Source of the DNA: Evansella sp. LMS18
GTDB taxonomy: Bacteria; Bacillota; Bacilli; Bacillales; Salisediminibacteriaceae
Assembly (NCBI RefSeq): GCF_024362785.1
Contig: NZ_CP093301.1
Span: 1,426,001 to 1,490,000, forward strand
Direction of reading: 5' to 3'
DNA length: 64,000 nt
The notes below the pieces were generated by a model. That model had not been told where the DNA came from. It was given only the letters and a program-made list of their open reading frames with translations, and searched no databases. Position numbers and translations under genes: made by a program. Positions 2,499 through 34,295 of this stretch are shown one piece after another. Numbering within the stretch: the first letter of the stretch is position 1; each line of letters starts with the position of its first letter.

Positions 2499-2706
2499 AA
2501 GTTGTGCGCATGTCTATGGAAGTTGTGCGAAAGTCGCCTGATTTCGTGCGAATACCATAGTATCTTGTGCGATTAATCTGAAGTCGTGCGAATGCCCCTT
2601 TATCTTGTGCGCATCACCATAGAAGTCGTGCGTATCACTATAAAAGTTGTGCGTATCACTATAAAAGTTGTGCGTATCATCATGGAAGTCGCGCAAACCC
2701 ACAGAA
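2499..2706 (+). repeat. Array 1: ten 21-bp units, core TTGTGCG
   Basis: Contiguous diverged units start at 2499, 2520, 2541, 2562, 2581, 2602, 2623, 2644, 2665 and 2686. All steps are 21 bp except one of 19 bp (2562-2581). Each unit begins AAG or AT followed by TTGTGCG or TCGTGCG, then a variable AT-containing half. It fills the gap between the MenC2-like gene and the dioxygenase terminator. Reading frames through it, on either strand, are artefacts of a period that is a multiple of three. Confidence 0.9.
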
Positions 2707-2722
2707 TACAACGCAAATTTAA

Positions 2723-2760
2723 TAAAAACCCTCCACTGAAAATACATCCAGTGAAGGGTC
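2723..2760 (-). terminator. Rho-independent terminator of the dioxygenase gene
   Basis: On the minus strand, GACCCTTCACTGG pairs with CAGTGGAGGGT across an A/T-rich loop and is followed by TTTTTATT. It lies 9 bases past the dioxygenase stop codon. Confidence 0.8.
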
Positions 2761-2768
2761 CCAATCAA

Positions 2769-3752
2769 TTACTCGTATTCTTTTTCGAATTTTTTCTCGC
2801 TTCTTACTGTATCGATAGGCCGTACAAGTTTCTCAATCTGATCACGACGCCCTTCGAGGAACGGAGGGAGCGATAATTTTTCACCGAGAGTCTCGTATGG
2901 TTCATCTCCCATAAACCCAGGGCCGTCCGTGGCAAATTCGAACAGAATTTGCGGTGCGACCCGGGCGTATAACGATTTGAAGAAGAACCTGTCAACATAC
3001 CCGGACGTCTGGAAGCCAAAGCTCTTCAGGTGGGTATCCCACTGGTCGAGTTCCTGCTTATCTTCGATTCGGAATGCGGCATGGTGGACAGTGCCAAAGC
3101 CTTGCTGCCCCGGAGGCAGAACAACATTTTCCTCAACGATGACCTGGGCACCGTTTCCTCCCTCACCCACCTCAAATAAGTGAAGGGAGCCAACCTTATC
3201 AATCTCCCTGAATTTGAGCACCTTCTCAAGCATTTCCTTGAAGTAGCTGAAATCCGCAATTCTTATATGAAGCGGTCCCAGCCCTGTAATCGCATACTCA
3301 AGGGGAATTGGACCGTCCTGCCACGGAATCCCCACCTCGACACCTTCATTATTTTCATCGGAAACAAGCTGGTATTGCTGATCGTCAAAGTCAGCGAATG
3401 ACAATGTCTTTTTTCCAAACAGGTCTTTAATCCCTTTATGCTTTACGCCGAGACGGTCAAAACGCTTCACCCAGTAATCCAGCGCTTCGTCACTCGGAAC
3501 ACGGAATCCGGTCTTATAAATTTCATTCGTCCCATGCTTTCCCTGTGGGATGCCGGGAAAATCGAAGAAAGTCATGTCTGTACCCGCATTTCCTTTATCA
3601 TCGGCAAAAAAGAGGTGATATGTCTGAATATCATCCTGATTCACTGTTTTCTTCACAAGGCGCATACCCAGCGTATAAGTAAAAAAGTCATAATTTTTCT
3701 CCGCACTGCTCGTAATTGCTGTTACATGGTGCAACCCTTTAAGCTGATTCAT
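2769..3752 (-). CDS. Ring-cleaving dioxygenase of the VOC superfamily, MhqO-like
   Basis: 327 residues with two vicinal-oxygen-chelate halves. The N-terminus LKGLHHVTAITS and the second-half segment GTVHHAAFRI each supply the metal-ligand histidine typical of the family; RFFFKSLYARVAPQILFEFATDGPGF near the end (quoted in part: ILFEFATDGPGF) carries the glutamate ligand. Bacillus MhqO/MhqA homologues protect against quinones and electrophiles by cleaving aromatic diols. The start is ATG with ATAGGAG 9 bases upstream. It is a single gene with its own terminator; no MhqR-type regulator gene is adjacent. Confidence 0.85.
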   Translation of the reverse strand: MNQLKGLHHVTAITSSAEKNYDFFTYTLGMRLVKKTVNQDDIQTYHLFFADDKGNAGTDMTFFDFPGIPQGKHGTNEIYKTGFRVPSDEALDYWVKRFDRLGVKHKGIKDLFGKKTLSFADFDDQQYQLVSDENNEGVEVGIPWQDGPIPLEYAITGLGPLHIRIADFSYFKEMLEKVLKFREIDKVGSLHLFEVGEGGNGAQVIVEENVVLPPGQQGFGTVHHAAFRIEDKQELDQWDTHLKSFGFQTSGYVDRFFFKSLYARVAPQILFEFATDGPGFMGDEPYETLGEKLSLPPFLEGRRDQIEKLVRPIDTVRSEKKFEKEYE

Positions 3753-4037
3753 ATATCAAAACTCCTATCACATAGTTTAGTTGACAATATCACTATAAAA
3801 AAGTAAGTACCTTCAATTATAATATCAGATTTGAACTACGAACGCTACTAATTGACTCCACAGAACCCTTACCCATTATTCCCCAAATACAAGCATAGCT
3901 CTTCTTAGTTTTTCCATATCAAGCTTTTAGATGCACACTCATTACATGTTCTAAATAAATGGAAGGACGTATAAAATACCATATAACTGACGCAAATGAG
4001 CCAGGCTTTTCATCTTTTTAAGATTGGGGACAGCAGC

Positions 4038-4859
4038 ATGCAAATGATGGCTTTTATTAAAACAAAAAAATTCCTTTATGTTTTTACAGGTGCAGTTTTT
4101 CTGTTGTCATTGTTTCTTGCAAGTTCATTCTATACGTCCCATATAAAGGCGCAGACCTCCGCAATGGAAGATTCATACTTGTATTTAAGAGATCAGGTTT
4201 TTGCTCTGGAAAATACTCTGGAAGAGAAAAGCGGAATTTTAGAAAGCCTGGAAGAGGACATCGAAACCAAACAAGGAGAGCTGGAAAAGACAGAAGAGAA
4301 CCTTGCCGGGAAGGAAGCTGAACAGGCCGGCCTTGAGAAAGAATACTCTGAGAAAACAGCCCAGCTCCAGGAGGAGTACGATGAGACAGTGGCGATGATT
4401 GAACGAAGAGATGAGGTCCAGGAGGAGCTGGAGTCCCTCGAGGAAAGATTAGAAGCGGAAACAAAGGTGCTTAAAGCCAGCCTCGAAAAAGAACTTGCTG
4501 GTCTGGAAAAAGAAGTAAAAACAAAACAAGCAGAGGCGGATAAATTAGCAGCTGAAATTGAGGCCAAAAATGAGGAACTGGAGAATGTGACCACCGTAAT
4601 AAGAGAGAAAAAGGAAGAACCCGTTTCCCTGTCCGCAGGTATGTTTGTGGTGGGGCATGATATTGAGCCGGGGAGATACCTTGTGGAACCAGTGGGAAGA
4701 GGAAGTAACTTTGTGACGTATGATGCTAATGGGAAACTGTCTGTAAATATCATCTTGAGCAACCGTCCCGATCACGGAGTCAGCGAATATGTACTCTTTC
4801 TCGGTGACCAATACATCATTGACAGCAACACACCAGCAACCTTTACTCCGATTGAATAA
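4038..4859 (+). CDS. Membrane-anchored coiled-coil protein with C-terminal beta domain
   Basis: A short cytoplasmic head and one hydrophobic segment (FLYVFTGAVFLLSLFLASS) are followed by about 150 residues of Glu/Lys/Leu heptads, clearly a long coiled coil, and a C-terminal domain of about 75 residues beginning AGMFVVGHDIEPGRYLVEP. That GxFxVGxDIxPGxY pattern recurs at the C-terminus of many Gram-positive exported proteins of unknown role. Topology is probably type II with the coiled coil outside. The frame opens at an ATG at 3996 with no ribosome site; GGGGA precedes the ATG at 4038, which I prefer weakly. No function is assigned. Confidence 0.7.
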   Translation: MQMMAFIKTKKFLYVFTGAVFLLSLFLASSFYTSHIKAQTSAMEDSYLYLRDQVFALENTLEEKSGILESLEEDIETKQGELEKTEENLAGKEAEQAGLEKEYSEKTAQLQEEYDETVAMIERRDEVQEELESLEERLEAETKVLKASLEKELAGLEKEVKTKQAEADKLAAEIEAKNEELENVTTVIREKKEEPVSLSAGMFVVGHDIEPGRYLVEPVGRGSNFVTYDANGKLSVNIILSNRPDHGVSEYVLFLGDQYIIDSNTPATFTPIE

Positions 4860-4978
4860 ACAGCACTAGTAAAATATCCGGAGATATTCCGTTTATTTGC
4901 AGATTGGAGCCGTTTCGGTGGGAAGGGGAGGTTTGACCGTTTAGCACAGCAATATCACCCATTTTCTAATTTTCTTAG

Positions 4979-5007
4979 TAAATAGCCGGAATCTCTCCGG
5001 CTATTTA
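4979..5007. terminator. Convergent stem-loop
   Basis: TAAATAGCCGGA and TCCGGCTATTTA form a perfect 12-bp stem with a 5-base loop between two convergent genes. T-runs are weak on both sides. Confidence 0.6.
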
Positions 5008-5110
5008 AGCGGTTTTTAGTAATAATTACGAATTAAGCGGAATGCTTCCGTTTAACCATTTATTAAATCAGTTGCTTAACCTGGACCTCCTGCCAACTTA
5101 TTTAAGTATT

Positions 5111-5929
5111 TTATCCCTCCCTGACATCCGTCAGCTCTGCCTGGATAATATATCTGTCAGGTGCGACGCCGAAGAAATTAAAAGGATAGCAAGTGGTCAG
5201 CGTTAAGGTTGGCGAATCTTTTTCAACGATAACCGTCCGGTCCTCCGCATCAGTGATCCATATATTGCGGATCTGGTATTCATACACCTTCCCTTCAACC
5301 TCCGTATAAAGCCGGTCCCCTTCTTCCAGGTCACCAAGCTCGCTGAACACCGTATCCCTGTGCCCTGATAAAACGGTGTGGCCCATGCCGTCAGGAGGGG
5401 TGGTGAATTTACTGTCGTGGTACCCCACTCCCTTGTTCAGCGTATCATCGTCAGTTCCCCAGTAAACCTCATAAACCATCCCGAGTTTTGGTATGATCAG
5501 CTCTCCAAATCTGTCTCCAGGCTGGTAAGAAACCTCTCCATTTTCCTGCTCTGTTTTTTTTCCGCTAACTGTCGAATCCTCAGCAGCTGCCTCTTCTGTC
5601 CCTTTTATCTTCTCTACTTTTTCAGCGGATTTTCCTTCAACTTCTATGTGAACCCCATTTTCTTCTTCAGAAAAATTCTCATCGTTTTGATTCTCTGCTT
5701 CCCCTCTGGCGTCCCGGACTTCGACACCATCACTGTCGGCCCTTCCCACGTCAGTGCCTGCCTCTGTGTACCCCGCATCAATTTGCGAACTGTCCCAATT
5801 TTCACTCACTGCCTGAGCCCTCTCTTTATTCTGAACCGCTCCGGCACTGCCTCCGTACCACTGCCAGAAACTCCAGCCGGCAACAACTAACCCGGCTATC
5901 ATCACGAGAAAAAGAAGACGGTTTGTCAT
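5111..5929 (-). CDS. srtD: Class D sortase
   Basis: 272-residue membrane transpeptidase that cleaves sorting signals and links proteins to the cell wall. An N-terminal anchor (LLFLVMIAGLVVAGWSFW) is followed by an acidic, low-complexity linker of about 110 residues and a C-terminal catalytic domain from FGELIIPKLGM. Catalytic residues are H190 (LSGHRDT), C247 (LTLTTCYPF) and R259 (APDRYI). TLxTC with a C-terminal Arg fits class D. The ATG at 5929 has AAGGAG 9 bases upstream; an earlier in-frame ATG would put that site inside the gene. The divergent neighbour carries an LPATA signal and is its obvious substrate. The long acidic linker is unusual and suits a high-salt exterior. Confidence 0.92.
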   Translation of the reverse strand: MTNRLLFLVMIAGLVVAGWSFWQWYGGSAGAVQNKERAQAVSENWDSSQIDAGYTEAGTDVGRADSDGVEVRDARGEAENQNDENFSEEENGVHIEVEGKSAEKVEKIKGTEEAAAEDSTVSGKKTEQENGEVSYQPGDRFGELIIPKLGMVYEVYWGTDDDTLNKGVGYHDSKFTTPPDGMGHTVLSGHRDTVFSELGDLEEGDRLYTEVEGKVYEYQIRNIWITDAEDRTVIVEKDSPTLTLTTCYPFNFFGVAPDRYIIQAELTDVREG

Positions 5930-6175
5930 ATGTATTAACTCCTTCATTCAGGATTTTGACAGCTTCCATTTCATTCCTTTACCCGCTGTTAAAATGACTG
6001 AACCATTATTCCGAGAAAAAACTCTATTTTTTCTAAAAATTAGTTCTTTTTCTCTAAATTCAATTATCTGGAAGGAAAAGGAGTTTAACCAGGCGGGCAT
6101 AAAGGAAAACAATACAGGAACGCCTGAAAGGGTGAAGTACGCTCAATCTAAAATCATTTGACAGGAGGGCTTTGT

Positions 6176-7129
6176 TTGATTAAAAAGAGAAGTTTGACCG
6201 CTTTTGGCGCTTTGTCATTGTCTATGTTACTGATCGGAACAAACAGCACCGTTGCAAATGAAGATTTAACTGCTGAAGATGTACTCAATCAATCCAATGA
6301 GGCGATGGAAAGCCTGCATAGTTATTCCAGCACGATTGATTTGCACCAGCTTATGGATGACGGTATCTCAGGAGAAATGGAGATGTATTCGGAAATTCAG
6401 CAGGATGTCATTCTTGATCCGTTCAAACTTCGCCAGGTTATGACTTCAACTCTGCCGGACGGCTCAACAGAGACTATTACCTCTTACTTTACAGAGGATG
6501 GTTATTTTATGGAAGATCCTGAGGGCGGCTGGATGCAGCTTACTGACGATATGAACGATATGAATGGAACAGCCTATGATCCGAATGATCAAATCTATCA
6601 AATGGAAGCTTATGCTGATGACCTGGTTCTTTCTGAAGAGGGCGGCTACTACGTGATTACATACGAAGGAGACGGCGATGAGCTCTCCACTCTGATGAAC
6701 GACCTTACAGAAGAAGGAATGAGTGACGAAGATACAGCGTTAATGGAAGAAATGATGGCTGAATTCGATATCCATGATTTCTCCTATGTCCTTTATATTG
6801 ACACGGATACTTACTTTCTCGACAGCATGGTCCTTGAGCTTGATATGGAAATCCATGCTGAAGGAGAAGCATCCGTAAGCATCTGGCAGGACCTTGACAT
6901 GTCATTTTACAACTTCAACAGTGTGGAAGACTTTGAGATTCCACAGGAAGCACTCGAGGAATCAGATGATGTACATGAAGTGATTGACGAAGCAATAGAA
7001 GAGGCGGAAGAAGGGGATGAACTCCCGGCCACAGCCACAAACAATCCAATCATGGCTTTTGGCGGTCTGCTGCTTGCAATGGCGGCAGGCGGGGTGCTTC
7101 TCATGCGCCGGAGAATTCAGAGAGCTTAA
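6176..7129 (+). CDS. Sortase-anchored surface protein with LPATA signal (DUF6612-like)
   Basis: 317 residues: a signal peptide ending near NSTVANE, a strongly acidic exported domain of about 250 residues, and a complete sorting signal with LPATA at about 283-287, the hydrophobic run IMAFGGLLLAMAAGGVLLM and the tail RRRIQRA. The exported part, with its SYSSTIDL and YYVITYEGD segments, resembles the LolA/LppX-like fold of DUF6612 lipoproteins; that assignment is tentative. The start is TTG at 6176 with AGGAGGG 6 bases upstream. Position beside the divergent class D sortase makes it the likely cognate substrate, since class D sortases favour LPxTA. Confidence 0.85.
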   Translation: MIKKRSLTAFGALSLSMLLIGTNSTVANEDLTAEDVLNQSNEAMESLHSYSSTIDLHQLMDDGISGEMEMYSEIQQDVILDPFKLRQVMTSTLPDGSTETITSYFTEDGYFMEDPEGGWMQLTDDMNDMNGTAYDPNDQIYQMEAYADDLVLSEEGGYYVITYEGDGDELSTLMNDLTEEGMSDEDTALMEEMMAEFDIHDFSYVLYIDTDTYFLDSMVLELDMEIHAEGEASVSIWQDLDMSFYNFNSVEDFEIPQEALEESDDVHEVIDEAIEEAEEGDELPATATNNPIMAFGGLLLAMAAGGVLLMRRRIQRA

Positions 7130-7139
7130 TATAGTCACA

Positions 7140-7167
7140 AGAGACAGGTTGCCCTGTCTCTTTTTTA
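7140..7167 (+). terminator. Terminator of the LPATA protein gene
   Basis: AGAGACAGG and CCTGTCTCT form a 9-bp stem with a 3-base loop, followed by six T. Confidence 0.9.
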
Positions 7168-7292
7168 TTTCACCCGAAATCCGGTTCAAATAGTGCACAG
7201 CACCCACTCATACTTTCCATGTAAAGTTAACGACTTCCCGTATAAGTCCTCTCTGTTTTTCATATATACAGAGTATAGGGGGTGGTGATAAT

Positions 7293-7907
7293 TTGCGTGT
7301 ATTAAGCCTTGTTTTAATGTGTGCTGTTTGTTTTACAGGCTGTTCCCCAGGCAATGGAGGGACAGCGGTAAAAGAGACAGCAGATTCCGGGGAAGCGCCG
7401 AAAGTTACCGAAAGTTCAGCCGGCCCGCCGGCAAGTACGTTCGAACCATCGATTGCGCAAACGGCTGATAAAAGTCAGGATTTTCCCATTACACCTGTCA
7501 CCGAGGCTGAAAAAGTGTATGCTGAATTTATGGATATAATCTATGAAGATATTAATACAGCCTTTGATGAAGTGTTGAAAGAAATTGACCAGCTCGTTAA
7601 CCCTGACAATGAATACAGCAGGATGTATGCTTTCGATGAAGACTGGAATGCCAGTATGGATAAGCACCTCCGGATTATTTCCGGTATACTGGAGCATTTA
7701 CACGAAATGGAAACAGTGCCTGATTTGTATGCGGATCATCATTACCATACAAAAACAGGGCTGAATTTATTTCTCTCCTCTGTGGAGGCTACCCGTGAAG
7801 CAACTATTCAGGCTGATCCGGAATTGCTTCAGGAATCTGGCTCCCTGTATCTGGAAGCTTTCACCCATCTCGCACAAGTTCCTCATTTTTATCCTGAAAA
7901 GGAATAG
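7293..7907 (+). CDS. Small lipoprotein of unknown function
   Basis: 204 residues beginning with a short signal peptide and a lipobox CFTGC, so probably a membrane-anchored lipoprotein. A 45-residue Pro/Ser/Gly/Glu-rich linker is followed by a helical domain of about 130 residues rich in Glu, His and Tyr (VYAEFMDIIYEDINTAFDEV). The helical pattern resembles four-helix-bundle lipoproteins, but I recognise no family. The start is TTG at 7293 after AGGGGGTGG. Confidence 0.7.
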   Translation: MRVLSLVLMCAVCFTGCSPGNGGTAVKETADSGEAPKVTESSAGPPASTFEPSIAQTADKSQDFPITPVTEAEKVYAEFMDIIYEDINTAFDEVLKEIDQLVNPDNEYSRMYAFDEDWNASMDKHLRIISGILEHLHEMETVPDLYADHHYHTKTGLNLFLSSVEATREATIQADPELLQESGSLYLEAFTHLAQVPHFYPEKE

Positions 7908-7965
7908 AACCCACCGTAATTTGACCACCCTCATTCCTTATATTCACCTCAGACATACGGTTCTT

Positions 7966-7998
7966 AAGCCAGTATATCTATTACCTGGCTTTTATTTT
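7966..7998 (+). terminator. Terminator of the small lipoprotein gene
   Basis: AAGCCAG (7966-7972) pairs with CTGGCTT (7985-7991) and runs into TTATTTTT. Confidence 0.75.
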
Positions 7999-8099
7999 TG
8001 ACAAAACTAGACATTTTTTTGTTCAAACTATAACAACTTTTTATGAAAAGCGGGTATACACTATACGTAGAAGAAAAACCTCGAGGTGAAGCATAAAAG

Positions 8100-8291
8100 A
8101 TGAAACTGAAAATAAAAAGATTCGATGCCGTCAGCGGTTTCGAACGGGAAACTCCATTATCCGAACAAGTAAGGGCCTGGTTGAACTCCCGCCCGGATAT
8201 TACAGTAAAAGAAATAAAAATGGACGAAAGAGAGGCACTGCTTCTGTACGAGCTCAGTGAACCTGCTGCAGAGAGGCCCTTAGAAGTATAA
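8100..8291 (+). CDS. Small protein of 63 residues, unknown
   Basis: A short ORF starting MKLKIKRFDAVSG, with GAGGTG 11 bases before the ATG and a strong terminator 110 bp downstream. Alternating charged and hydrophobic residues suggest a small alpha/beta domain. A promoter-like TTTATG..TATACT stretch lies just upstream. No family is recognised; it is supported only by ribosome site, codon use and context. Confidence 0.5.
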   Translation: MKLKIKRFDAVSGFERETPLSEQVRAWLNSRPDITVKEIKMDEREALLLYELSEPAAERPLEV

Positions 8292-8399
8292 CATTAGGGG
8301 TATTGGCGAGCAGAGTGGCTGACTGGGCGAATTTCCGTAAAAAAAGCAATGGCCTCTGAAAATAGTAAAACAAATAGTTTTACCATCATCTATAGAGAA

Positions 8400-8432
8400 A
8401 ACGAGAAGCTGAACCAGCTTCTCGTTTTTTTA
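8400..8432 (+). terminator. Strong rho-independent terminator
   Basis: AACGAGAAGCTG and CAGCTTCTCGTT form a perfect 12-bp stem with an AAC loop, followed by seven T. Confidence 0.93.
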
Positions 8433-8609: not shown

Positions 8610-9530
8610 ATGAAGAAGGCTTTATCATTACTGATGGTTCCTGCAGCCCTCACTGTTCTTGCTGCTTGCGGCGGGGCGAACGACAACAATGAGGAACAGG
8701 CTGAAAACACGAATGCCGGCAATGAAGCTAACGAGGAAGCTGTAAACAACAATAACGACGGCGCTGCAGATGGGGAAGATTCTGCCTGGGCGGAAATTGA
8801 AGAAGAAGGAACACTCATTGTAGGTACTTCAGGCACATACGCACCGGTTACCTTCCATAATGAAGATAACGAACTAACTGGTTTTGACGTAGAGCTTGCC
8901 CGTGCGATTGCAGATTATCATGGGCTTGAAGTGCAGTTTGAAACAATGGAATTTGACGGTATTTTACCAGCATTGCGTAACGGCCAGATTCACATGGCAG
9001 TCAATGACTTTGCTGTAACAGAAGAACGTCTTGAAACATTCGATTTCACTGATCCATACAAATTTTCCTATGGTTCTGTCATTGTCCGTTCGGAAGACGC
9101 AGACCAGTTCCAGTCCGCGGAAGACCTGGAAGGCGTTGACGCAGCACTTGGCTCGTTAACAAGTAACTATGCGCGATTCGCTGAATATATCGGCGCGAAC
9201 AGCACAGCTTATGATGGAGGCGTGGAACCAATCCTCCGCGATATCCTGGGAGGAAACCAGGACGCTTATTTAAACGACCGCCTTGTTCTGGCCCGTACAC
9301 TGGAAGAATTCGGTGATGAAAACCTCACTGTTGCCGAGGACGTAAAGTACCATTCAACAGAAAGTGCCATCCCAGTTTTAAAAGGAAATGAGGAACTGGT
9401 TGAGCAGCTTAATGAAGCGATCGAAGCGCTGAGAGAAGACGGAACTATTGCAGAGCTTTCCGAAGAATTTTACGGCGAAGACGCATCTGAACCTGTTGAT
9501 TCATCAGAAGTATATGAGTTTGATTTTTAA
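8610..9530 (+). CDS. Amino-acid (cystine-type) ABC transporter substrate-binding lipoprotein
   Basis: 306 residues: lipoprotein signal with LAAC lipobox, an acidic Asn/Glu/Gly linker, then a family 3 solute-binding domain beginning GTLIVGTSGTYAPVTFHN. Typical segments are GFDVELARAIA, FDGILPALRNGQIHMAVNDF (the ligand-contact loop) and FDFTDPYKFS. It is closest in pattern to cystine or polar-amino-acid binders. The start is ATG with GAGGAGG upstream. Permease and ATPase genes follow after a 512-bp gap filled by repeat array 2, which is unusual inside an ABC operon. Confidence 0.88.
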   Translation: MKKALSLLMVPAALTVLAACGGANDNNEEQAENTNAGNEANEEAVNNNNDGAADGEDSAWAEIEEEGTLIVGTSGTYAPVTFHNEDNELTGFDVELARAIADYHGLEVQFETMEFDGILPALRNGQIHMAVNDFAVTEERLETFDFTDPYKFSYGSVIVRSEDADQFQSAEDLEGVDAALGSLTSNYARFAEYIGANSTAYDGGVEPILRDILGGNQDAYLNDRLVLARTLEEFGDENLTVAEDVKYHSTESAIPVLKGNEELVEQLNEAIEALREDGTIAELSEEFYGEDASEPVDSSEVYEFDF

Positions 9531-9626
9531 AAATTGAGTGAGACCAATGCTGCGCCATGGCGTCGGCGTTTGTATATGGGGTTTGACTATACGGTGAGGT
9601 TTCGTTTGCAGAAAACAGGAGTTGTT

Positions 9627-9897
9627 TTCGCAGGTAAGGTTGCTCGTTTCGCAGGTAGGACTGCGCTTTTCGCAAGACAGCCTGGCTTTTTCGCAGATTG
9701 GAATGCTTTTTCCGCAGGTTGAACTGATATTTTCGCAGGTTGAACTCTATTTCGCGAATTGAAACCCCGATTTCGAGAATAGAAGGTGGGATTTCGCGAA
9801 TTGGCACCACCATTTCGAGAATGGGAATCATGATTTCGAGAATCAGCACCCCAAATTCGAGAATCGACACCATAATCTCGCGAATTGGCGGTTCCCT
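9627..9897 (+). repeat. Array 2: thirteen 21-bp units, core TTCGCAGG then TTCGMGAAT
   Basis: Units start at 9627, 9648, 9669, 9690, 9711, 9732, 9751, 9772, 9793, 9814, 9835, 9856 and 9877. Every step is 21 bp except one of 19 bp (9732-9751). The first six share TTCGCAGGTTGRA, the rest TTCGCGAAT or TTCGAGAAT, so the array is two fused sub-families joined exactly at the 19-bp unit. It lies between the binding-protein and permease genes. A frame reading ISRI repeats runs through it into the permease, but the permease's own ribosome site lies beyond the array. Confidence 0.93.
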
Positions 9898-10042
9898 GGC
9901 AATCAGACCTGCTGCCACTTCCATATTTACCGCTAATAAACTATTTTCACCGAACGGGTGCCTCAAAAGAATCAGCAGCATTCTTTTGGGTCACCCATTT
10001 CTTTTATTCGAGCTGCTTATCCTAGTAAAGGAGGTAAAACTA

Positions 10043-10744
10043 ATGATTGAATGGTTCAGCAATATTCAGTGGGAACATTTATATAACCCCCAGCTGGCGT
10101 GGGACTCCCTCCCGTTCTTATTAGAGGGACTGAGAATTACGATGATCATCTCCCTCTTCAGCATGTTCTTCGCACTCATTTTAGGAATTTTCATCGGGAT
10201 TGCCCGGATGTCAAAATTCTGGTTTTTACGCATACCAGCAAGAATTTATATTTCCTTCATGCGCGGCACCCCGCTTCTCGTTTTTATATTTATACTTTAT
10301 TACGGGCTCCCTGTAATAGGCGTCCAGTTTAACAGTGCGGTTGTAGCCGGCATTGTAGGGATCAGCTTGAACTTCGCAGCCTACAACGCGGAAGTTGTCC
10401 GTTCGGCAATTATGTCGGTCCCCCGGGGCCAGTGGGAGGCAGCCTCCTCCCTTCAAATGGGCTATGTACAGACAATGCGGCGCATCATCATTCCCCAGGC
10501 GACACGGATTGCCCTGCCGCCTACCTTCAACATTTTCATGGACGTAGTAAAAGGGACGTCTCTCGCCTCTGTGATTACAGTGCAGGAACTGCTGTACTCG
10601 TCCCGCGTTGTTGCCGGGAGAACGTATGACAGTATGACAATGTACATTACCGCCGCCCTCATTTACTGGGTAGTTTGTATTGTTATCGGCCATTTTCAGG
10701 AGCGATTGGAAAAAAGATATAACCGCTACTTAAGCCAGCGATGA
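10043..10744 (+). CDS. Polar amino-acid ABC transporter permease (cystine type)
   Basis: 233 residues, HisM/TcyB type, with about five membrane segments ([20 protein letters not shown] and others) and the EAA loop [20 protein letters not shown] that docks to the ATPase. The start is ATG at 10043 with AAAGGAGG 8 bases upstream. A longer frame from 9740 is only read-through of array 2. The stop overlaps an ATGA just before the ATPase gene, so the two are translationally coupled. Confidence 0.92.
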
Positions 10745-10758
10745 ACGGAGGGAAAAAC

Positions 10759-11502
10759 ATGATTGAAGTTAAAAGTTTAAAGAAGCAGTTTGATGATGTC
10801 ACTGTGCTTGAGTCAATTGATTTTACTGTGGAAAAAGGGGATGTTGTCTGTTTGATCGGACCTTCCGGTTCTGGAAAAACAACGCTGCTTCGCTGTTTGA
10901 ATCTGCTGGAAACACCGAACGCAGGATCTATCACAATCAGTGACAAAACAGTTTCCTTTGATAACAGAAAAGGGCTATCAAAAAAAGAAGTGAAAGAGCT
11001 TCGAAGTTTTTCCGGTATGGTTTTTCAAGGTTTCCATCTTTTTCCCCATAAAACGGTGATGGAGAATATCATTGAAGCGCCTTTGATTGTAAAAAAACAG
11101 GACAAGAAAAAATTGACTGCCGAAGGAGAAAGGCTCCTGGAGAAAGTGGGAATGTTGGAGCACCGGGATAAATACCCCGATTCCCTTTCAGGAGGACAGC
11201 AGCAAAGAGCTGCCATCGCCCGTGCACTGATGATGAACCCGGAAGTGATGCTGTTTGATGAACCAACGTCTGCACTCGACCCCCAGCTTGTCGGGGAAGT
11301 ACTTCGGGTAATTGAGGAACTGGCAAAGGAAGGCCAGACGATGGTCATCGTGACACACGAAATGAACTTCGCCCGCCGAATTGCGGACAAAGTGTTGTTT
11401 ATGGATGACGGCTACATTTTAGAATCCGGCCCGCCCGCCGAGGTTCTTGAGAAACCGAAAGAAGCACGCACGAAAGAATTTTTACAGCTTCTTGATGAAT
11501 AG
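10759..11502 (+). CDS. Polar amino-acid ABC transporter ATP-binding protein (cystine type)
   Basis: 247 residues with Walker A GPSGSGKT (34-41), Q-loop region [16 protein letters not shown], signature LSGGQQQR, Walker [14 protein letters not shown] and the switch histidine in VTHEMNFA. This is the canonical ATPase of PAAT-family importers. The ATG at 10741 overlaps the permease stop, but ACGGAGGG lies between it and the ATG at 10759, which I take as the start. Confidence 0.93.
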
Positions 11503-11510
11503 AAAAAAAG

Positions 11511-13383: not shown

Positions 13384-13413
13384 AAGGTACAGCCGGCTGG
13401 CTGTACCTTTTTT
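13384..13413 (+). terminator. Terminator of the AGCS gene
   Basis: AAGGTACAGCC and GGCTGTACCTT form an 11-bp perfect stem with a GGCT loop, followed by T's. Confidence 0.92.
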
Positions 13414-13430
13414 ACGGGATTTTGTACGAG

Positions 13431-13556
13431 GTTGGCGTGATAATTTATGTGTTTCGCGCGATAATACCTTAGTTCGGCGTGATAACCTGCCAGTTTCGCG
13501 CGATTCTACCTTAGTTCGGCGTGATAACCTGCCAGTTCTGCGTGATTAAACTCCAT
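13431..13556 (+). repeat. Array 3: six 21-bp units, core CGGCGTGATA / CGCGCGATA
   Basis: Units start at 13431, 13452, 13473, 13494, 13515 and 13536, with exact 21-bp steps. Two alternating types give a 42-bp higher-order period: TTCGGCGTGATAACCTGCC and TTTCGCGCGATWNTACCTT. It lies between convergent genes, starting 18 bp after the AGCS terminator. Confidence 0.93.
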
Positions 13557-18257: not shown

Positions 18258-18314
18258 GCATATTCCGCGGTAACCTCAGTGTAAGCGCGTAAACATTGGC
18301 GGACGAATGACGAT

Positions 18315-18380
18315 AATTGCGTTTTCGTACAGAGAAAAGTGCGTTTTCTGCTGGAGATAATTACGTTTTCTCTAAAGGAT
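18315..18380 (+). repeat. Array 4: three 22-bp units, core GCGTTTTC
   Basis: GCGTTTTC or ACGTTTTC recurs at 18319, 18341 and 18363, each preceded by an AGATAATT- or AGAAAAGT-like half. It is short and diverged, placed upstream of the sigma factor gene. Confidence 0.6.
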
Positions 18381-18582
18381 AATGTGATTATCTATATACT
18401 TTTCTAAGGGAAAAAATAGCTAACTTGATCCTCTTTATTTTTTCAGGGCAGCAAAACATGATATGAAATTTATCCATTAACTATGAAGAGTATTTTGGAA
18501 ACCGAGCTAGCGAGGGAGTACTATTGCGGATAAAAACAAAAAGGACCTAAATCCCGTTGATTTAAGCCCTTCATTATCTTTC

Positions 18583-18808
18583 TTGTTGCGAAAATAGTGG
18601 TGCTTGTGGCGATTTCGGCAACTCTTGTTGCGATATTAGTAGTCCTTGTTGCGATTCCTAATCCTTGTTGCGATATTAGTAGCACTTATTGCGATTTCAG
18701 CAACCCTTGTTGCGATATTAGTAGCCTTTGTTGCGATTCCAGCAACTCTTCTTGCGACTTAAGCAATTCTTGTTGCGATTCCAGCAACCCTTGTTGCGAA
18801 ATTAAACC
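18583..18808 (+). repeat. Array 5: eleven 21-bp units, core TTGTTGCGA
   Basis: Units start at 18583, 18604, 18625, 18646, 18665, 18686, 18707, 18728, 18749, 18770 and 18791; one step (18646-18665) is 19 bp, the rest 21. Two unit types tend to alternate: TTGTTGCGATATTAGTAG and TTGTTGCGATTCCAGCAA, giving a 42-bp dimer period. The array abuts the stop codon of the RacA-like gene. Confidence 0.95.
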
Positions 18809-24850: not shown

Positions 24851-25037
24851 CTGTGCGTATGCCCCTCTCAGTTGTGCGATAAACCTTTGGAGTTGTGCGA
24901 ATGTGCATGGAAGTCGTGCGATCAACCTAAACTTGTGCAATCACCCCCTTTAGTTGTGCGAATCCCATCTGAACTCGCGCAAATAAGCACCAAAGTTGTG
25001 CGAATAATCTCCTAACTTGTGCAATCACCCTCAGTAA
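24851..25037 (+). repeat. Array 6: nine 21-bp units, core TTGTGCGAAT
   Basis: Units start at 24851, 24872, 24893, 24914, 24933, 24954, 24975, 24996 and 25017; one step is 19 bp (24914-24933), the rest 21. It shares the TTGTGCGAAT core with array 1, 22 kb away, but the variable halves differ. Confidence 0.93.
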
Positions 25038-28692: not shown

Positions 28693-28694
28693 GT

Positions 28695-30737
28695 TTACAC
28701 CCCCACCTCAATGATTAAGTTTCCATAACTATCGACTGTCAGCTGCTGGCCCGGATAAAGCACAGTAGAATTCGACTGTTCCTCCACAATCGCAGGACCT
28801 TCAATTGTCACCTCAGCACCGAGCTTTGTTCTGTCATAAACTTTCGTATCTACCCACCCGTCCTCTTCATAGAGAACAGATCTCACTTCTTTAAGAGCAT
28901 CTTCAGCAGTACCCTCAGTTGCAGGTAGTTTTGCTAATTCCGGCTTCTGTACTGTACCGAAGGCCGTCAGGTGTAAATTAACAATTTCTGTCGGAGCTCC
29001 TTCGAGTTTGAACGTATATAGCTGCTCGTGTGTTTCATGGAACTTCTCAATAACATGTTTCATACTTTCTTCTGTTATTTCACCTGCAGGTACTGGAACT
29101 TTTACAGTATGCTCCTGTCCCAGGTAGCGCAGATCGGCGAATCGTGTCAAAATTACGTCTTCTTCCTCCACACCCTCATCTTTATACTGAGCAACCGCCT
29201 GTGTTTCCTGAACTTCAAGCTGCTTATTCAGTTCAGAAAAATCGATTCCTTCCACTCTGCGGATGTATGTCTGAATATAATCATGCCTTAGGTCCGTCAT
29301 CAGCATTCCCCATGCGGAGAAAACGGAAGCACCGACTGGCACAATAACTTTGTTTACTCCTAATTCTTTTGCCAGTGCCGGCGCGTGCATAGAACCGCCG
29401 CCGCCAAAAGCGACTAATGTAAATTCCCTCGGATCATAGCCTTTTCTTACTGAAATTAGCTTTAACGCATTAAGCATATTGGAATTGGCAATTCTGATAA
29501 TCCCTAATGCTGCTTCCTCTACTGTAGTGCTGAATGGCTTGGCTATTTTCTCTGTAATTGCCTGCTTTACTTTTTCCATATCAACGTCATTATCAAAGTT
29601 TGCTGGTGATAATCGCCCAACAACTAAATTAGCATCTGTAGTTGTCGGCTCTTCCCCGCCTCTTCCGTATGCTACAGGACCAGGAAGTGCACCAGCAGAT
29701 TTAGGGCCTACCCGTAAAGAACCTCCATCATCTATCCAGGCGATTGATCCCCCGCCGTTCCCAATTTCCACTATGTCAACAACGGGAACCTTTACTGGGT
29801 AGCCCGCTGTACGGTCGGTTCTTTCAATGCTGTAGTCTGTGGAAACTTTTACTTCCCCTTTATCAATGAGCGAACATTTTGCTGTAGTACCACCAATATC
29901 AAATGCAATAATATTATCCTCACCTAGCATTTTTCCAAGAATTGCAGATCCGTAAATCCCTGCCACTGGTCCTGATTCCAGCATATTTATTGGAGTCTGT
30001 TTAGACTGGTCAAAGGTAGTCGTTCCCCCGTTTGACTGCATAATATACTTGTTTGACTCTGTTCCAGCTTCTTTAAGTTCATTCTCCAGCCGGTCTACAT
30101 AAGAAGAAGCAATCGGTTTAACATAAGAGTTTAATACTGTAGTACTTGTCCTTTCATATTCCCGCCACTCTTTCGTTACTTCATGGGAAGCAGTAACGGC
30201 AACCTCTGGCCAAAGCTCCTTAACAAGCTCTACTGTTTCTTTTTCATGTGTATCATTGCTGTAGGAATGAAGAAAGGAAACAGCGACAGCCTGTACATTT
30301 TCCTTTTTAAAATAATCTACTATTTCTTTTACTCGTTCTTTATTAAGCGGCTCAATAACTTCACCTTTATATGTAAGCCTCTCCTCAACTTCCTGTCGCA
30401 GGTGCCGCGGCACAAATGGGGTCGGTTTTTCATAGCGTACATTGAATAAATCAGGACGGTTTCCTCGTGCAATCTCAAGTACATCTCTGAACCCTTTTGT
30501 TGTGATCAGCCCTGTTTTTACCCCTTTACGCTCCGTTAATGCGTTGATGATTACAGTAGTTCCATGAATAAATGTGTTTAACTGGTCCAGGTTAATTTCA
30601 CTTTCATCTAATACATTCATTACACCTCTCTCAAAATTCGGAGGTGTGGTATGGCTCTTGGCAATACCCATTTTCCCACCGTCATCCACATAAACTAAAT
30701 CAGTAAACGTACCGCCAATATCTGTAGCAACTCTCAT
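28695..30737 (-). CDS. Hydantoinase A/oxoprolinase family protein
   Basis: 680 residues of the ASKHA ATPase-type HyuA subunit. Phosphate-binding segments ATDIGGTFTDLVYVD at the N-terminus and AFDIGGTTAKCSLID in the second half, plus HGTTVIINALTERKG and EIGNGGGSIAW, are all present. It acts with HyuB next to it. The start is ATG with AAAGGTGG upstream. The operon's regulator gene lies immediately upstream on the same strand. Confidence 0.92.
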   Translation of the reverse strand: MRVATDIGGTFTDLVYVDDGGKMGIAKSHTTPPNFERGVMNVLDESEINLDQLNTFIHGTTVIINALTERKGVKTGLITTKGFRDVLEIARGNRPDLFNVRYEKPTPFVPRHLRQEVEERLTYKGEVIEPLNKERVKEIVDYFKKENVQAVAVSFLHSYSNDTHEKETVELVKELWPEVAVTASHEVTKEWREYERTSTTVLNSYVKPIASSYVDRLENELKEAGTESNKYIMQSNGGTTTFDQSKQTPINMLESGPVAGIYGSAILGKMLGEDNIIAFDIGGTTAKCSLIDKGEVKVSTDYSIERTDRTAGYPVKVPVVDIVEIGNGGGSIAWIDDGGSLRVGPKSAGALPGPVAYGRGGEEPTTTDANLVVGRLSPANFDNDVDMEKVKQAITEKIAKPFSTTVEEAALGIIRIANSNMLNALKLISVRKGYDPREFTLVAFGGGGSMHAPALAKELGVNKVIVPVGASVFSAWGMLMTDLRHDYIQTYIRRVEGIDFSELNKQLEVQETQAVAQYKDEGVEEEDVILTRFADLRYLGQEHTVKVPVPAGEITEESMKHVIEKFHETHEQLYTFKLEGAPTEIVNLHLTAFGTVQKPELAKLPATEGTAEDALKEVRSVLYEEDGWVDTKVYDRTKLGAEVTIEGPAIVEEQSNSTVLYPGQQLTVDSYGNLIIEVGV

Positions 30738-30790
30738 GAAAATACCACCTTTCTTCCCTGTTTATTCTTAAAATAGCTTACAAAACGATT

Positions 30791-30832
30791 TTGACCCGGC
30801 CTGAAGGGAGCAATGTCATTCCATTCGGCCGG
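30791..30832. other. Stem-loop between regulator and hyuA
   Basis: ACCCGGCC and GGCCGGTT pair across a 26-base loop. No T-run follows on the minus strand, so it may be a leader structure rather than a terminator. Confidence 0.4.
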
Positions 30833-31378
30833 TTAAAAAAGAACTGGTGTCAGCACACAAAGCACCTTCGCTTCGGTGTTCAGGGGATTTTCCCACTGGT
30901 GAGGAATATCGGATGGAAAGTGAATAGAGTCCCCTGCTTTTACTAAATATTCTTTCTCCTCCACAGTAAATAGCACTACTCCCTCAATGACGTAATAAAA
31001 TTCTTCTCCCGGATGGTTAAAAACCTTATCAGATGATGGCTGCCCCGGAGCTAAACTTACTAGCAATGGCTCCAGCGACCTTCCTGTGAAGTTGCCTCCA
31101 AGCCTTGTATACTCTGCCAATGAACCTTCAATTCGAAACGTGTGGTGTTCACTTTGTTTTACGTGAAAATTTCTGTTAGAAACATTTTCAAAAAAATCGG
31201 TTATCTGAACCTCAAGTGCGTCGGAAATTTTCTTTAAGGAAGTTATCGCAATCGACGAAGATCCCCGTTCAACCTGTGACAGAAAACTTACTGACAAACC
31301 CGTTTTTTCACTTAAACCTTTTAACGTTAGCTTTTTTTCTGTACGTAGCTCTCTGATTTTCTCTGAAACTTCTTCCAT
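30833..31378 (-). CDS. XRE-family regulator with C-terminal cupin sensor
   Basis: 181 residues. The N-terminal helix-turn-helix (IRELRTEKKLTLKGLSEKTG, then LSVSFLSQVERG) is followed by a C-terminal cupin (FNHPGEEFYYVIEGVVLFTV and HFPSDIPHQWEN). This architecture belongs to small-molecule-responsive repressors or activators of adjacent catabolic genes. The ATG at 31378 has GGGAGG 5 bases upstream; the longer frame is not needed. It probably controls the hyu operon. Confidence 0.87.
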   Translation of the reverse strand: MEEVSEKIRELRTEKKLTLKGLSEKTGLSVSFLSQVERGSSSIAITSLKKISDALEVQITDFFENVSNRNFHVKQSEHHTFRIEGSLAEYTRLGGNFTGRSLEPLLVSLAPGQPSSDKVFNHPGEEFYYVIEGVVLFTVEEKEYLVKAGDSIHFPSDIPHQWENPLNTEAKVLCVLTPVLF

Positions 31379-31598
31379 AAAATCCTCCCATGGAATTTTA
31401 AGTAAATCGTAATTTTTAAAGCTATACTTCAATTTATTAGAATATATCATAATTATTTTTGAATTAAAAGAAAATTTTTAAAACATTGACAAAACTGAAT
31501 TTTATTCGTGAGGGGATATGCCTTTATGAGAATATAAATCTGATGTTTGTTAACCGGTATATGTAAAGTGAGGATAACTGGGGAACTATTAAGAGAAG

Positions 31599-31762
31599 TT
31601 CTGCGAACGGACCCTTTAGTTGTGCGAATAAACACCAAAGTTTTGCGATTTCACCCCCTATCAACACCCCGCTCTACTTATCACGCCCCGCATGAATGTT
31701 ATCACGCCGAACCCGCCCATTATCGTGCCGAGCCCGCATATAATCACGCCAACCTGCCAGAT
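31599..31762 (+). repeat. Array 7: eight units, cores TTGTGCGAAT then TATCACGCC
   Basis: Units start at 31599, 31620 and 31641 (TTNTGCGA type), then about 31660, 31679, 31700, 31721 and 31742 (TATCACGCC type). Steps are 21, 21, 19, 19, 21, 21 and 21. The second sub-array is array 3's vocabulary in reverse complement (GGCGTGATA; AACCTGCCAG is also shared in the last unit). It lies in a divergent gap between the XRE regulator and cstA genes. Confidence 0.88.
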
Positions 31763-31820
31763 GACTAAATTTTTTAGCACCTAACCTTAGAACCTGGTCA
31801 AAAAAATAATAAAAATTTTA

Positions 31821-31866
31821 CTGACTTTTTGTAAGCGTAACCATCCTTGTCAGATAAGCTTACAAG
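31821..31866 (+). promoter_or_regulatory. Interleaved inverted repeats upstream of cstA
   Basis: CTGAC (31821-31825) pairs with GTCAG (31849-31853), and TTGTAAGC (31829-31836) pairs with GCTTACAA (31858-31865). The two pairings interleave, as in an H-type pseudoknot, or else mark overlapping operators. It lies 115 bp before the cstA start. Confidence 0.45.
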
Positions 31867-31981
31867 CCTAACTTATATTTTGAATTAATATTTTTTTCAG
31901 AAAACTATGGTTGTTTTTCCCCACAAGAGTAGTTACACTATTCTCTATACTTAAATAACAATCAGACGGGAGAGTAGAGAT

Positions 31982-33415
31982 ATGACTACGTTTATCTTGG
32001 CAATAGTTTTATTAATAGGCGGATATATGATTTATTCGAAGGTTGTGGAACGGTTATTCGGGATAAACGATAATGAACCAACACCTGCCTATACAAAGGG
32101 AGACAATCTTGATTACATACCGATGCCCTGGTGGAAGGGAAGTTTAATTCAATTACTTAATATTGCGGGACTGGGGCCAATTTTTGGTGCTGTAATGGGA
32201 GCACTATATGGACCTGTCGCCTTCATCTGGATTGTCGTTGGTTCTATTTTTGCAGGAGCCGTTCACGACTATTTTTCCGGCATGCTTTCCTTAAGGCACA
32301 GAGGAGAACAGTATCCCCAGCTGGTACGACGATACTTAGGAAACGGGGCAGCCATCTTTATTTACGGGATCACGATTGTTCTCATGATCCTTGTGGCATC
32401 TTCTTTTACTGCAGGGCCTGCCCAGCTTATTGCCCAAATCACACCCTTAAGCTTTTTAGCTGCAATTGGTATCGTTTTTGCTTATTTTCTGCTTGCAGCT
32501 CTGCTGCCAGTAAACAAAATCATCGGGAAAATCTACCCGGTATTTGGCGGGATACTGATTTTTATGGCGGTAGCAGTTGGTGTTGCACTTCTGTTTACTG
32601 ACAGGCAGATACCGAATCTTACCGTGGAAAACCTTCACCCTCAGGAGCTGCCAATCTGGCCTCTGTTAATGGTTACTATTTCATGTGGAGCTATTTCCGG
32701 ATTCCATAGCACACAGAGCCCGATTATCGCCCGCACACTGAAAAAAGAATCAGACGGAAGAAAGGTGTTTTACGGAGCAATGATCGCAGAAGGGATTATC
32801 GCAATGATCTGGGCGGCTGCTGGCATGACCTTTTTCGGCGGAACAGAAGGCCTTCAGGCAGCGCTTGCAGAAGGCGGACCGGCTGGCGTTGTTAACGAAA
32901 TCTCCATCACCTTCCTTGGAACCTTAGGAGGAATTCTCGCGATTCTCGGTGTAATCATCCTGCCTATCACGACAGGTGATACCGCGTTACGTTCTTCAAG
33001 GATGATGCTGACAGAGGTTATTGGCAAAAAATACACTAAGATTAACGGAAAAGTTGGCGTGTTCCTGATGACATTTGTTATGGCTGTACCGGTACTAATT
33101 CTCAGTACGATTCAGTTTGAATTTTTATGGAGGTACGTCGGCTGGACAAACCAGGTTGTGGCAACCTTCATGCTCTGGACTGCAGCTGTTTATCTGCTGC
33201 ATAAAAACCGGGCACACTTGGTATGCGCTATCCCGGCGATCTTCATGAGCGCGGTTGTCTGTACCTACATTTTCTATGCGCCGGAAGGGTTCGGCATGGA
33301 TTACCAAGTGTCCGTTATCATCGGACTGGTGCTAACAGCAATCATCGCATTCTGGTATATTAATAAGGTGAAAAAAGTGAAACGCGGGCAGCAGACGAAC
33401 GTGGATGCTGCGTGA
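31982..33415 (+). CDS. cstA: CstA-family carbon starvation protein
   Basis: 477 residues, about thirteen membrane segments. Family segments: DNLDYIPMPWWKGSLIQLLN, IAGLGPIFGAVMGALYGPVA, GAVHDYFSGMLSLRHRGEQ, ISCGAISGFHSTQSPIIART and LPITTGDTALRSSRMML. CstA-type proteins import peptides or pyruvate under starvation. This is the short Firmicutes form, without the long C-terminal domain of enterobacterial CstA. The start is ATG after GGGAGAG. Confidence 0.9.
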   Translation: MTTFILAIVLLIGGYMIYSKVVERLFGINDNEPTPAYTKGDNLDYIPMPWWKGSLIQLLNIAGLGPIFGAVMGALYGPVAFIWIVVGSIFAGAVHDYFSGMLSLRHRGEQYPQLVRRYLGNGAAIFIYGITIVLMILVASSFTAGPAQLIAQITPLSFLAAIGIVFAYFLLAALLPVNKIIGKIYPVFGGILIFMAVAVGVALLFTDRQIPNLTVENLHPQELPIWPLLMVTISCGAISGFHSTQSPIIARTLKKESDGRKVFYGAMIAEGIIAMIWAAAGMTFFGGTEGLQAALAEGGPAGVVNEISITFLGTLGGILAILGVIILPITTGDTALRSSRMMLTEVIGKKYTKINGKVGVFLMTFVMAVPVLILSTIQFEFLWRYVGWTNQVVATFMLWTAAVYLLHKNRAHLVCAIPAIFMSAVVCTYIFYAPEGFGMDYQVSVIIGLVLTAIIAFWYINKVKKVKRGQQTNVDAA

Positions 33416-33424
33416 TTAATGGAG

Positions 33425-33463
33425 AAACCCTGGCTGTTTTGATGTGCAGCCGGGGTTTTTGTT
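33425..33463 (+). terminator. Terminator of cstA
   Basis: AACCCTGGCTG and CAGCCGGGGTT pair with one G-T or mismatch around ten bases, followed by TTTGTTT. Confidence 0.85.
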
Positions 33464-33594
33464 TGGAAAAATTAAATGATATTACAATAATAAAATTTAC
33501 CGGCCATCGCACTTGGGAAAAGTTATGAACATTATATTAAAATAAAATGATAGATTCATATTCTATTAACTATGGCACGACTTGAATAACACCT

Positions 33595-33641
33595 GCACCT
33601 TTTGTCCACCCTGTTTAATAGAAAGGGTGGACAAAAGGTGC
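33595..33641 (+). promoter_or_regulatory. Perfect 18-bp hairpin covering the vanZ ribosome site and start
   Basis: GCACCTTTTGTCCACCCT (33595-33612) and its exact reverse complement (33624-33641) flank an 11-base loop. The ribosome site AGGGTGG and the GTG start (33638) both lie in the 3' arm, so the folded mRNA would hide them. Confidence 0.7.
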
Positions 33642-34141
33642 GTTATTTTAACTTAGTCTTGCTGATATGCTCCGTCGCTGCGGCCATTATTTTATCTTCC
33701 ATAATCTATGAAACTGGAGGTGTTCTTGAAGCATCAGCTGTGCGCTCTGTTTACAAGGGAGAATCCTCCCTTCTGTTCCTGTTCCAAATGGAGAGTTCCT
33801 TCTATTCTATCTATCCGCTGGTCGATGGACCAGCAGATCTCCAGCTCCGAAAAGCCGCACACTTTTTTGCCTATGGTTTCCTTGCCGCTGTCATTTATTG
33901 TTTAGTTACCTGGGCTCCCTTTTGGCAGAGAGGCGCGGCCGCAGTGGCGAGTTCTTCCCTGATTGGGACCATTGATGAAATCCATCAGCATTTCCTGTTA
34001 AATCGAAGTGGCAGGCTGCTTGATATCTTCATTAACCTAGCAGGAAGTGTTACTGCAGTCCTTCTTATAATGGGGTTAGTGGCTTTTTTAAGTTTCATAG
34101 AAGCAAAATTCCCTGAAAATCAGGAACATTCACAGCTTTAA
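33638..34141 (+). CDS. VanZ-like membrane protein
   Basis: 167 residues with four membrane segments. Core family motif: LRKAAHFFAYGFLAAVIYCL, then GTIDEIHQHFLLNRSGRLLD and IFINLAGS. VanZ proteins give low-level teicoplanin resistance in some hosts; most chromosomal members have no known role. I take the GTG at 33638 (AGGGTGG 7 bases upstream) as start; a TTG at 33602 would put the hairpin inside the coding region. Confidence 0.82.
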   Translation: MRYFNLVLLICSVAAAIILSSIIYETGGVLEASAVRSVYKGESSLLFLFQMESSFYSIYPLVDGPADLQLRKAAHFFAYGFLAAVIYCLVTWAPFWQRGAAAVASSSLIGTIDEIHQHFLLNRSGRLLDIFINLAGSVTAVLLIMGLVAFLSFIEAKFPENQEHSQL

Positions 34142-34157
34142 GGTCTCTCGCCTCAGC

Positions 34158-34295
34158 TTTTTGCAGAAACCTGCCTTCAAAATTTTGCAGATAATTAATA
34201 TATTGGCGAAAAACTTATTTTATTGGCTAAATCGGAGGTTTTATTGGCGAAAATCAATTTTTATTGGCGAAATCCATGAGTTTATCGGCGAAACA
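34158..34295 (+). repeat. Array 8: units of 20-21 bp, core TTGGCGAAA
   Basis: TTGGC recurs at 34203, 34223, 34244, 34264 and (as TCGGC) 34285, in steps of 20, 21, 20 and 21, preceded by two TTTTGCAG units from 34158. It lies between convergent genes. Confidence 0.82.

Follow-up and report, generated by a model that had tools for sequence, protein, structure and literature searches.

A 64,000-nucleotide stretch of the genome of Evansella sp. LMS18 (G000:C1:1426001-1490000, hereafter the window; the genome, G000, is a single contig of 4.90 Mb) carries, between its genes, several arrays of short head-to-tail repeats with a step of about 21 bp. The window arrays belong to a chromosome-wide family, of which no description was found among the papers listed by literature searches (open-licence PMC papers only). 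The new observation reported here is that three classes of this family, named A, A2 and E, are mostly oriented along replication, even where the adjacent gene opposes it. Interspersed bacterial repeats are often without a known role, and this family combines a fixed spacing, several recognisable types of core and an orientation that, in most A, A2 and E arrays, matches fork movement.

Arrays of the window

The unit of these arrays consists of a class-specific 5' half, followed by the core GCGAWAT (or TCGAAAT, ACGAAAT) and then by a variable spacer. The consensus is CAACCTGCGAAAT for class A, CAATCAACGAAAT for A2, CTTGTTGCGAWAT for B, GTTGTGCGAAY for C, TTTATTGGCGAAA for D, TATTCTCGAAAT for E and GCGYGATAA for F. 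The original prediction, made from the letters of the window, stated that the half outside the core differs between arrays and is kept within each of them. It also stated that every unit contains GCG, which is incorrect, since part of the array at 9625-9889 carries TCTCGA instead. Some arrays switch class along their length, and this same array (A to E) is one of them.

All eight places named in that prediction hold phased head-to-tail units of ~21 bp, the one at 18315 being weak; core chain scoring gave 6-15 core positions per reported array, edges included. The first array (2491-2702, plus strand) is of class C, with ~11 units and two 19-bp steps, and lies beyond a terminator-like hairpin at 2725-2762. 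The mixed array at 9625-9889 (minus strand, 13-15 units) begins with class A (CCTGCGAAA, 9625-9746) and continues into class E (TTCTCGAAAT, 9749-9889). Its neighbours are an SBP_bac_3 gene and an ABC permease gene, and these solute-binding-protein and permease genes look like one ABC transporter operon (8634-11502); a shorter orthologue of the array is present in the sister genome G004, from the same genus. In E. coli, REP elements in a comparable position inside operons affect expression. The class F array at 13429-13551 (plus strand, six units at 21 bp) has convergent genes on both sides and a terminator-like hairpin at 13384-13409.

The weak array at 18312-18394 (plus strand, TTGCGTTTTC), with three or four units at steps of 20-22 bp, was left out of the class, harmonic and orthologue sets. 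It is followed by a class B array of 11 units (18582-18804, plus strand), which is flanked by the stop codon of a gene and a terminator-like hairpin at 18540-18572, and whose orthologue in the sister genome has 22 scored core positions. A second class C array (24852-25032, plus strand) has nine units and one 19-bp step, and when compared with the sister genome its spacers diverge more than its cores. Two short arrays lie side by side further along: three units of class C with divergent genes on both sides (31596-31660, plus strand), and four class F-like units (31665-31758, minus strand, GGCGTGATAA on that strand). The last is a class D array of five units at 20-21 bp (34201-34303, plus strand; terminator-like hairpin at 34329-34357), which has about one recognisable unit at the matching place in the sister genome; this array and the one at 2491 have little or no counterpart in the compared stretch of G004.

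As predicted, gene calls based on codon usage place the window arrays between genes, with the proviso that these calls miss some genes (e.g., a permease ending at 10744 and a VanZ-like gene at 33602-34141). Since the 19-bp step breaks the reading frame and the calls leave the arrays intergenic, decayed coding repeats were ruled out. Tandem Repeats Finder (TRF) reports nothing with a period of 19-22 or 40-42 from 34.3 to 64 kb, and this part of the window had indeed been described as free of them.

Distribution, spacing and divergence

The intergenic DNA of a 464-kb sample of G000 (the window and 20 evenly spaced 20-kb stretches) was compared with itself at different lags. Lag 21 gave 24 segments versus 1-3 at each of the lags 16-20 and 22-24, and versus a maximum of 10 (lag 15) among the other lags from 8 to 25; lags 42 (15 segments) and 52 (13) were also prominent. 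The 21-bp peak foreseen for a dispersed family is thus present. In the whole genome, GCGA-N17-GCGA-N17-GCGA gave 143 matches versus one for the same pattern reversed, which served as the control in all genome-wide searches; four phased CGAA words gave 128 versus 0, the class E pattern 96 versus 0 and the class A2 pattern 83 versus 0. Both chromosome arms carry arrays, contrary to the enrichment on one arm that had been suggested.

Among 35 genomes of the family, matches to the GCGA triple and to its control were 129 and 2 in G004, 60 and 0 in G003, 25 and 1 in G006, 23 and 2 in G022, 13 and 1 in G008, 10 and 5 in G020, and 6 and 1 in G028, with five or fewer in the remaining genomes. The fourfold CGAA pattern gave 0 and 1 in G003, 0 and 6 in G006, 7 and 0 in G008, and 9 and 2 in G022. 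In G003, all the listed triples fall within ~110 kb (4.24-4.36 Mb, L175-L177); their core is a different one (AGTTACGNGCGATT), and some of the blocks measure ~164 bp. In 100 kb each from G001, G006 and G008, genuine lag-21 segments were absent (a match in G001 being a run of N), a result that speaks against a genus-wide family. At the level of the order, the class C triple is present in 8 of 397 genomes, G000 included, and its reversed control in 2 of 397. A scan of named genomes returned at least 119 stretches, and 20 of the 80 listed were inspected: 12 resemble phased arrays with kindred cores (from Lentibacillus, Oceanobacillus halotolerans, Bacillus coahuilensis, Salsuginibacillus and Evansella clarkii), and the other eight were left unclassed, several of them resembling plain tandem repeats. 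Crude calls of open reading frames (ORFs) place many of these named-genome stretches inside ORFs, so that they may not all be intergenic. As judged from these few core patterns, the arrays are patchy within the genus and the order.

With respect to genes, 70 loci in the fetched stretches of G000 were placed: convergent gaps hold 18 of them (9.4 expected from gap length), divergent gaps 5 (11.3 expected) and tandem gaps 47 (49.3 expected; p 0.003). Arrays are thus over-represented where genes converge and under-represented where they diverge. Smaller sets showed a weak trend in the convergent class for G000 (5 observed, 3.0 expected) and G003 (4 and 1.8), and none for G004 (2 and 1.7). A location near gene 3' ends had been proposed, and this is partly borne out; in tandem gaps, the array is closer to the upstream stop codon in 18 of 21 cases in G000, 9 of 13 in G004 and 4 of 9 in G003, and in 30 of 47 in the larger G000 set (p 0.08). 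A class F locus at 2214139, inside a called gene, was left out of the 70-locus count and of the polarity and skew counts, and four long-period arrays (L010 5306, L014 6770, L018 15345 and L019 13117) were left out of the class, harmonic, orthologue and gene-context sets.

The spacing was scored for 1147 steps in loci of classes A, A2, B, C and E: 790 are of 21 bp, 208 of 19, 71 of 20, 38 of 22, 26 of 18 and 14 of 23, with a mean of 20.56 bp, or 10.28 bp per helical turn. The predominance of the 21-bp step is therefore as originally described, whereas the 19-bp step, which had been considered rare, is the second commonest. Successive 19-bp steps are most often separated by three 21-bp steps (53 of 113 cases), and in 22 of 113 by none. 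Three 21-bp steps and one 19-bp step account for the 82-bp blocks found by TRF in several classes; these blocks are 93-94% alike in two arrays and 79% in a third, and because copies of one block are not independent, no p-value is given for the block structure. The second harmonic (10.5 bp) of the unit's GC profile takes, on average, a larger share than any other in each of three genomes (0.24, 0.23 and 0.29), and it exceeds a column-permuted null in 11 of 11 classes, weakly in each (P 0.011-0.227).

Within arrays, identity between cores has class means of 0.79-0.90, values inflated since CG was required, and identity between spacers (columns 8-16) has class means of 0.31-0.42, versus the 0.27-0.28 that unrelated DNA would give. 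For each of five classes the two arrays with the lowest spacer identity were taken; these are extremes of 66 arrays and in some cases have four units only. Their spacer identity is 0.22-0.32 versus 0.26-0.30 expected, and that of their 5' half is 0.40-0.68. The spacing is still mostly 21 or 19 bp, and hence phase is better kept than sequence, as had been proposed. Since the 5' half, the core and the phase persist where the spacers resemble each other no more than unrelated DNA does, the arrays are probably under selection.

Between G000 and G004, 16 of 20 array pairs were compared, the other four having no usable flanks. Mismatch is lowest in GCGA (7%), followed by the 5' half (12%), the spacer (24%) and the DNA that separates the anchor from the array (30%), with some paired units probably being paralogous; the outer flanks of the 16 pairs are 79-98% identical (BLAST). 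The anchor-to-anchor length differs by more than 20 bp between the sister species in 14 of the 16 pairs, and the arrays turn over fast between them.

Orientation relative to replication

At the sampled points, the GC skew of G000 changes sign between 1.715 and 1.96 Mb and between 4.41 and 4.655 Mb, and dnaA is located at 1.93 Mb (at 1.14 Mb in G004). The polarity map was drawn with 1.84 and 4.55 Mb as limits, and no scored locus falls between 1.84 and 1.93 Mb. Loci co-directional with the fork are 12 of 14 in class A, 12 of 12 in A2, 14 of 17 in E, 3 of 10 in C, 0 of 3 in D and 5 of 7 in F; in class B they are 2 of 15, the other 13 running against the fork. When classes A, A2 and E are pooled, 38 of 43 loci are co-directional (strand by arm, Fisher p 5e-8), and 32 of 35 after thinning to 3 kb apart, some loci sharing an array with another class. 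Likewise, in the whole-genome pattern lists, with loci grouped by hand and the origin placed at dnaA, co-directional loci number 21 of 26 in class E and 14 of 15 in class A2. A count by hand in G004 (fourfold CGAA list, terminus assumed at 3.12-3.53 Mb, two class C loci left out) gave about 26 of 30.

Several simple causes of this polarity were considered and rejected. The orientation of neighbouring genes fails as a cause: of the 12 A, A2 and E loci where the nearest 3'-facing gene opposes replication, 11 have the array following the fork (p 0.006). GC skew is not the cause, the leading-strand skew of the spacers being near 0 in co-directional A, A2 and E arrays (0.02, 0.02 and 0.05, respectively). 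Strand-specific folding is not the cause either: it is opposite in sign in A/A2 and in E, yet their polarity is the same.

To the left of the origin, from 1.69 to 1.84 Mb, lie four of the seven places where A, A2 or E arrays run the wrong way (1691, 1693, 1829 and 1840 kb), when the locus set and the whole-genome lists are taken together.

Interpretation and relation to known repeats

We consider that the best explanation, with a probability of roughly 0.4, is that the arrays act as duplex DNA, for a putative protein and with a polarity related to the fork. According to this model, each unit would carry a site of ~12 bp, formed by the class-specific 5' half and GCGAWAT, that the putative protein reads on double-stranded DNA. 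With sites two helical turns apart (21 bp, three or four units often being followed by a 19-bp step), several protein molecules could bind next to each other on almost the same face of the helix. The site is asymmetric; it mostly points along the fork in A, A2 and E, and mostly the other way in class B, which has another 5' half, and its direction may matter to something that moves with the fork. Three parts of this model are inferred: that selection works through binding of a protein, that polarity is imposed by the fork, and that replication, supercoiling or chromosome layout is affected in any way. It is a less probable extension that the arrays are a novel type of bacterial chromosome element, replication-polar and helically phased (21-21-21-19), read by one protein family with several specificities, and marking the direction of the fork or organising the DNA behind it. 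If a protein does read the arrays, the chromosome would have in them a new means of specifying which way the fork moves or how its DNA is locally arranged.

Several points weigh against this interpretation. The reader protein is putative. Arrays were detected through their core, which inflates the conservation of the core and, slightly, that of the 5' half; moreover, the 7% core mismatch between sister species is not below that of well-aligned outer flanks, the spacer being the fast part. Regarding polarity, the grouping of A, A2 and E was chosen after the data were seen, and with all classes pooled 48 of 78 loci are co-directional; 5 of the 43 A, A2 and E loci run the wrong way, long arrays near 1.69 Mb among them. 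The test concerns one lineage (G000 and its sister G004), and loci may share ancestry. The leading-strand AT skew of the spacers in co-directional arrays is 0.34 in A, 0.28 in A2 and 0.03 in E, versus 0.04 in other intergenic DNA, and the raised values in A and A2 leave some room for base composition as a source of polarity. Finally, units are gained and lost and some arrays are absent from the sister species, and therefore no single array need be essential.

The main rival, a close one and a serious possibility in its own right, is a driven or neutral satellite, generated by strand-dependent tandem duplication at replication or by single-strand copying-in at the fork and tolerated where promoters are unharmed; polarity would then reflect birth and not function. 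The changes of length between sister species, the 82-bp blocks, which are of the sort that unequal exchange leaves, the depletion between divergent genes, the patchy distribution (e.g., that of the class C triple) and the polarity by chromosome arm are all consistent with it. The satellite accounts for turnover and polarity, but not for the 5' halves and cores that are kept beside spacers at the level of unrelated DNA, which recent duplication alone would not yield. In addition, no transposase or reverse transcriptase was seen to mark the array-rich genomes among nine genomes of the genus (Y1_Tnp is present in 9 of 9 and RVT_1 in 7 of 9), and the 6.5-7-kb surroundings of the four Y1_Tnp genes of G000 contain no intergenic lag-21 segment.

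Less probable, and on balance unlikely, is that the arrays are wrapping sites of the gyrase type, similar to BIME-2, in which a phased alternation of GC and AT bends the DNA round gyrase near gene ends. The weak 10.5-bp harmonic and the enrichment between convergent genes are in its favour, as is the likeness to the phased 10-bp G/C variation of the E. coli gyrase motif and to the cutting of BIME-2 by gyrase, both described in PMC6379681. Wrapping, however, needs neither strict letters (TTGTTGCGA, TTCTCGAAAT) nor replication polarity.

An RNA-level element of 3' untranslated regions, a function that the original prediction had put forward, seems very improbable. The array at 18582 does lie between a stop codon and a terminator-like hairpin and that at 9625 inside an apparent operon, and folding is slightly stronger in classes C, D and F than in intergenic DNA on average (D, -16.3 versus -11.9 kcal/mol, three loci). 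Against this, three window arrays are beyond a scanned terminator-like hairpin and a fourth (24852) is beyond one spotted by eye, and the window, its arrays included, has no match to an Rfam covariance model at gathering score (0 matches). A role at the DNA level fits better than one at the RNA level because orientation tracks replication and not the gene, and because the folding of A, A2, B and E does not exceed that of the remaining intergenic DNA. In sum, the original interpretation is supported in part: its claim on phase holds and a DNA-level role is favoured, its polymerising protein stays hypothetical, and the enrichment on one arm was not confirmed.

Guide sequences of a translocase, such as SRS or KOPS, where an octamer is read by the translocase, are the least probable explanation: they share the polarity by replichore (38 of 43 A, A2 and E loci), but the core differs from the octamer, class B is opposite, arrays take the place of single octamers, and the role looks filled. 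The word GAGAAGG, which we take to be part of the B. subtilis SRS, shows outside the arrays, in the fetched stretches of G000, a leading-strand skew of 142 to 46, in line with what a SpoIIIE recognition sequence should display.

The arrays can also be compared with other known repeats. Plasmid iterons and plasmid centromere repeats have adjacent protein sites at ~20-22 bp and share this side-by-side spacing; here, in contrast, at least 70 chromosomal loci are occupied, and no rep or par gene was found among the 14 window proteins scanned. MIRU and other minisatellites are interspersed intergenic tandem repeats with longer units, and we know of no replication polarity in them, whereas the units described here are shorter and replication-polar. 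CRISPR arrays have repeats of at least 23 nt with unique spacers of similar length, unlike the 21-bp period and ~12-bp core of these arrays. Some REP/BIME elements sit inside operons; REPs are palindromes able to form stem-loops, whereas the units here are arranged as direct repeats, and their main classes give no clear sign of folding. The likeness with REP/BIME lies in the intergenic location at many loci, BIME-2 being cut by gyrase (PMC6379681). The STAR elements of Staphylococcus (PMC3532100) are conserved short direct repeats with variable spacers, interspersed intergenically, variable in copy number and of unknown function; they have a 14-bp GC-rich core, T(G/A/T)TGTTG(G/T)GGCCC(C/A), and spacers of 40-44 bp. 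The present arrays are also dispersed, intergenic and variable in number; however, the STAR core occurs in none of their classes, their steps are of 21 or 19 bp, and their two-turn phasing is not described for STAR in the passages of PMC3532100 consulted.

A second intergenic tandem family, with a period of 51-52 bp (about five helical turns), was met in G000, G001, G006 and G008, with one array in G004. Its arrays include L010 5306-5895, L012 11340-11756, L014 6770-7578 and L018 15373-16264, as well as others in L178, L181, L182, L183, L186 and L188. Of 37 intergenic arrays in stretches of G000, G001, G006 and G008 that were spaced evenly or chosen arbitrarily (the window being one of them), 14 repeat with a basic period of 20-22 bp and 16 with one of 51-52 bp, 30 in all. 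The median best identity among 17 of the 52-bp arrays from five genomes is 0.42, versus 0.41 for shuffled units, and 21 of 136 pairs exceed the 95th percentile of the null (0.48); within G000 and within G006 the arrays are related, with median identities of 0.55 and 0.53, respectively. Most of the 52-bp units contain an inverted repeat (mean arm 6.1 versus 2.4). Across genomes the 52-bp period is common while the sequence mostly is not, and this second period with genome-specific sequences suggests that the period itself may be selected. Arrays with a period of 101 bp, rich in GGTTCCAGGAACC palindromes, were also observed (L013 9955-10546 and L229 3791-4316), one of them beside a Y1_Tnp match.

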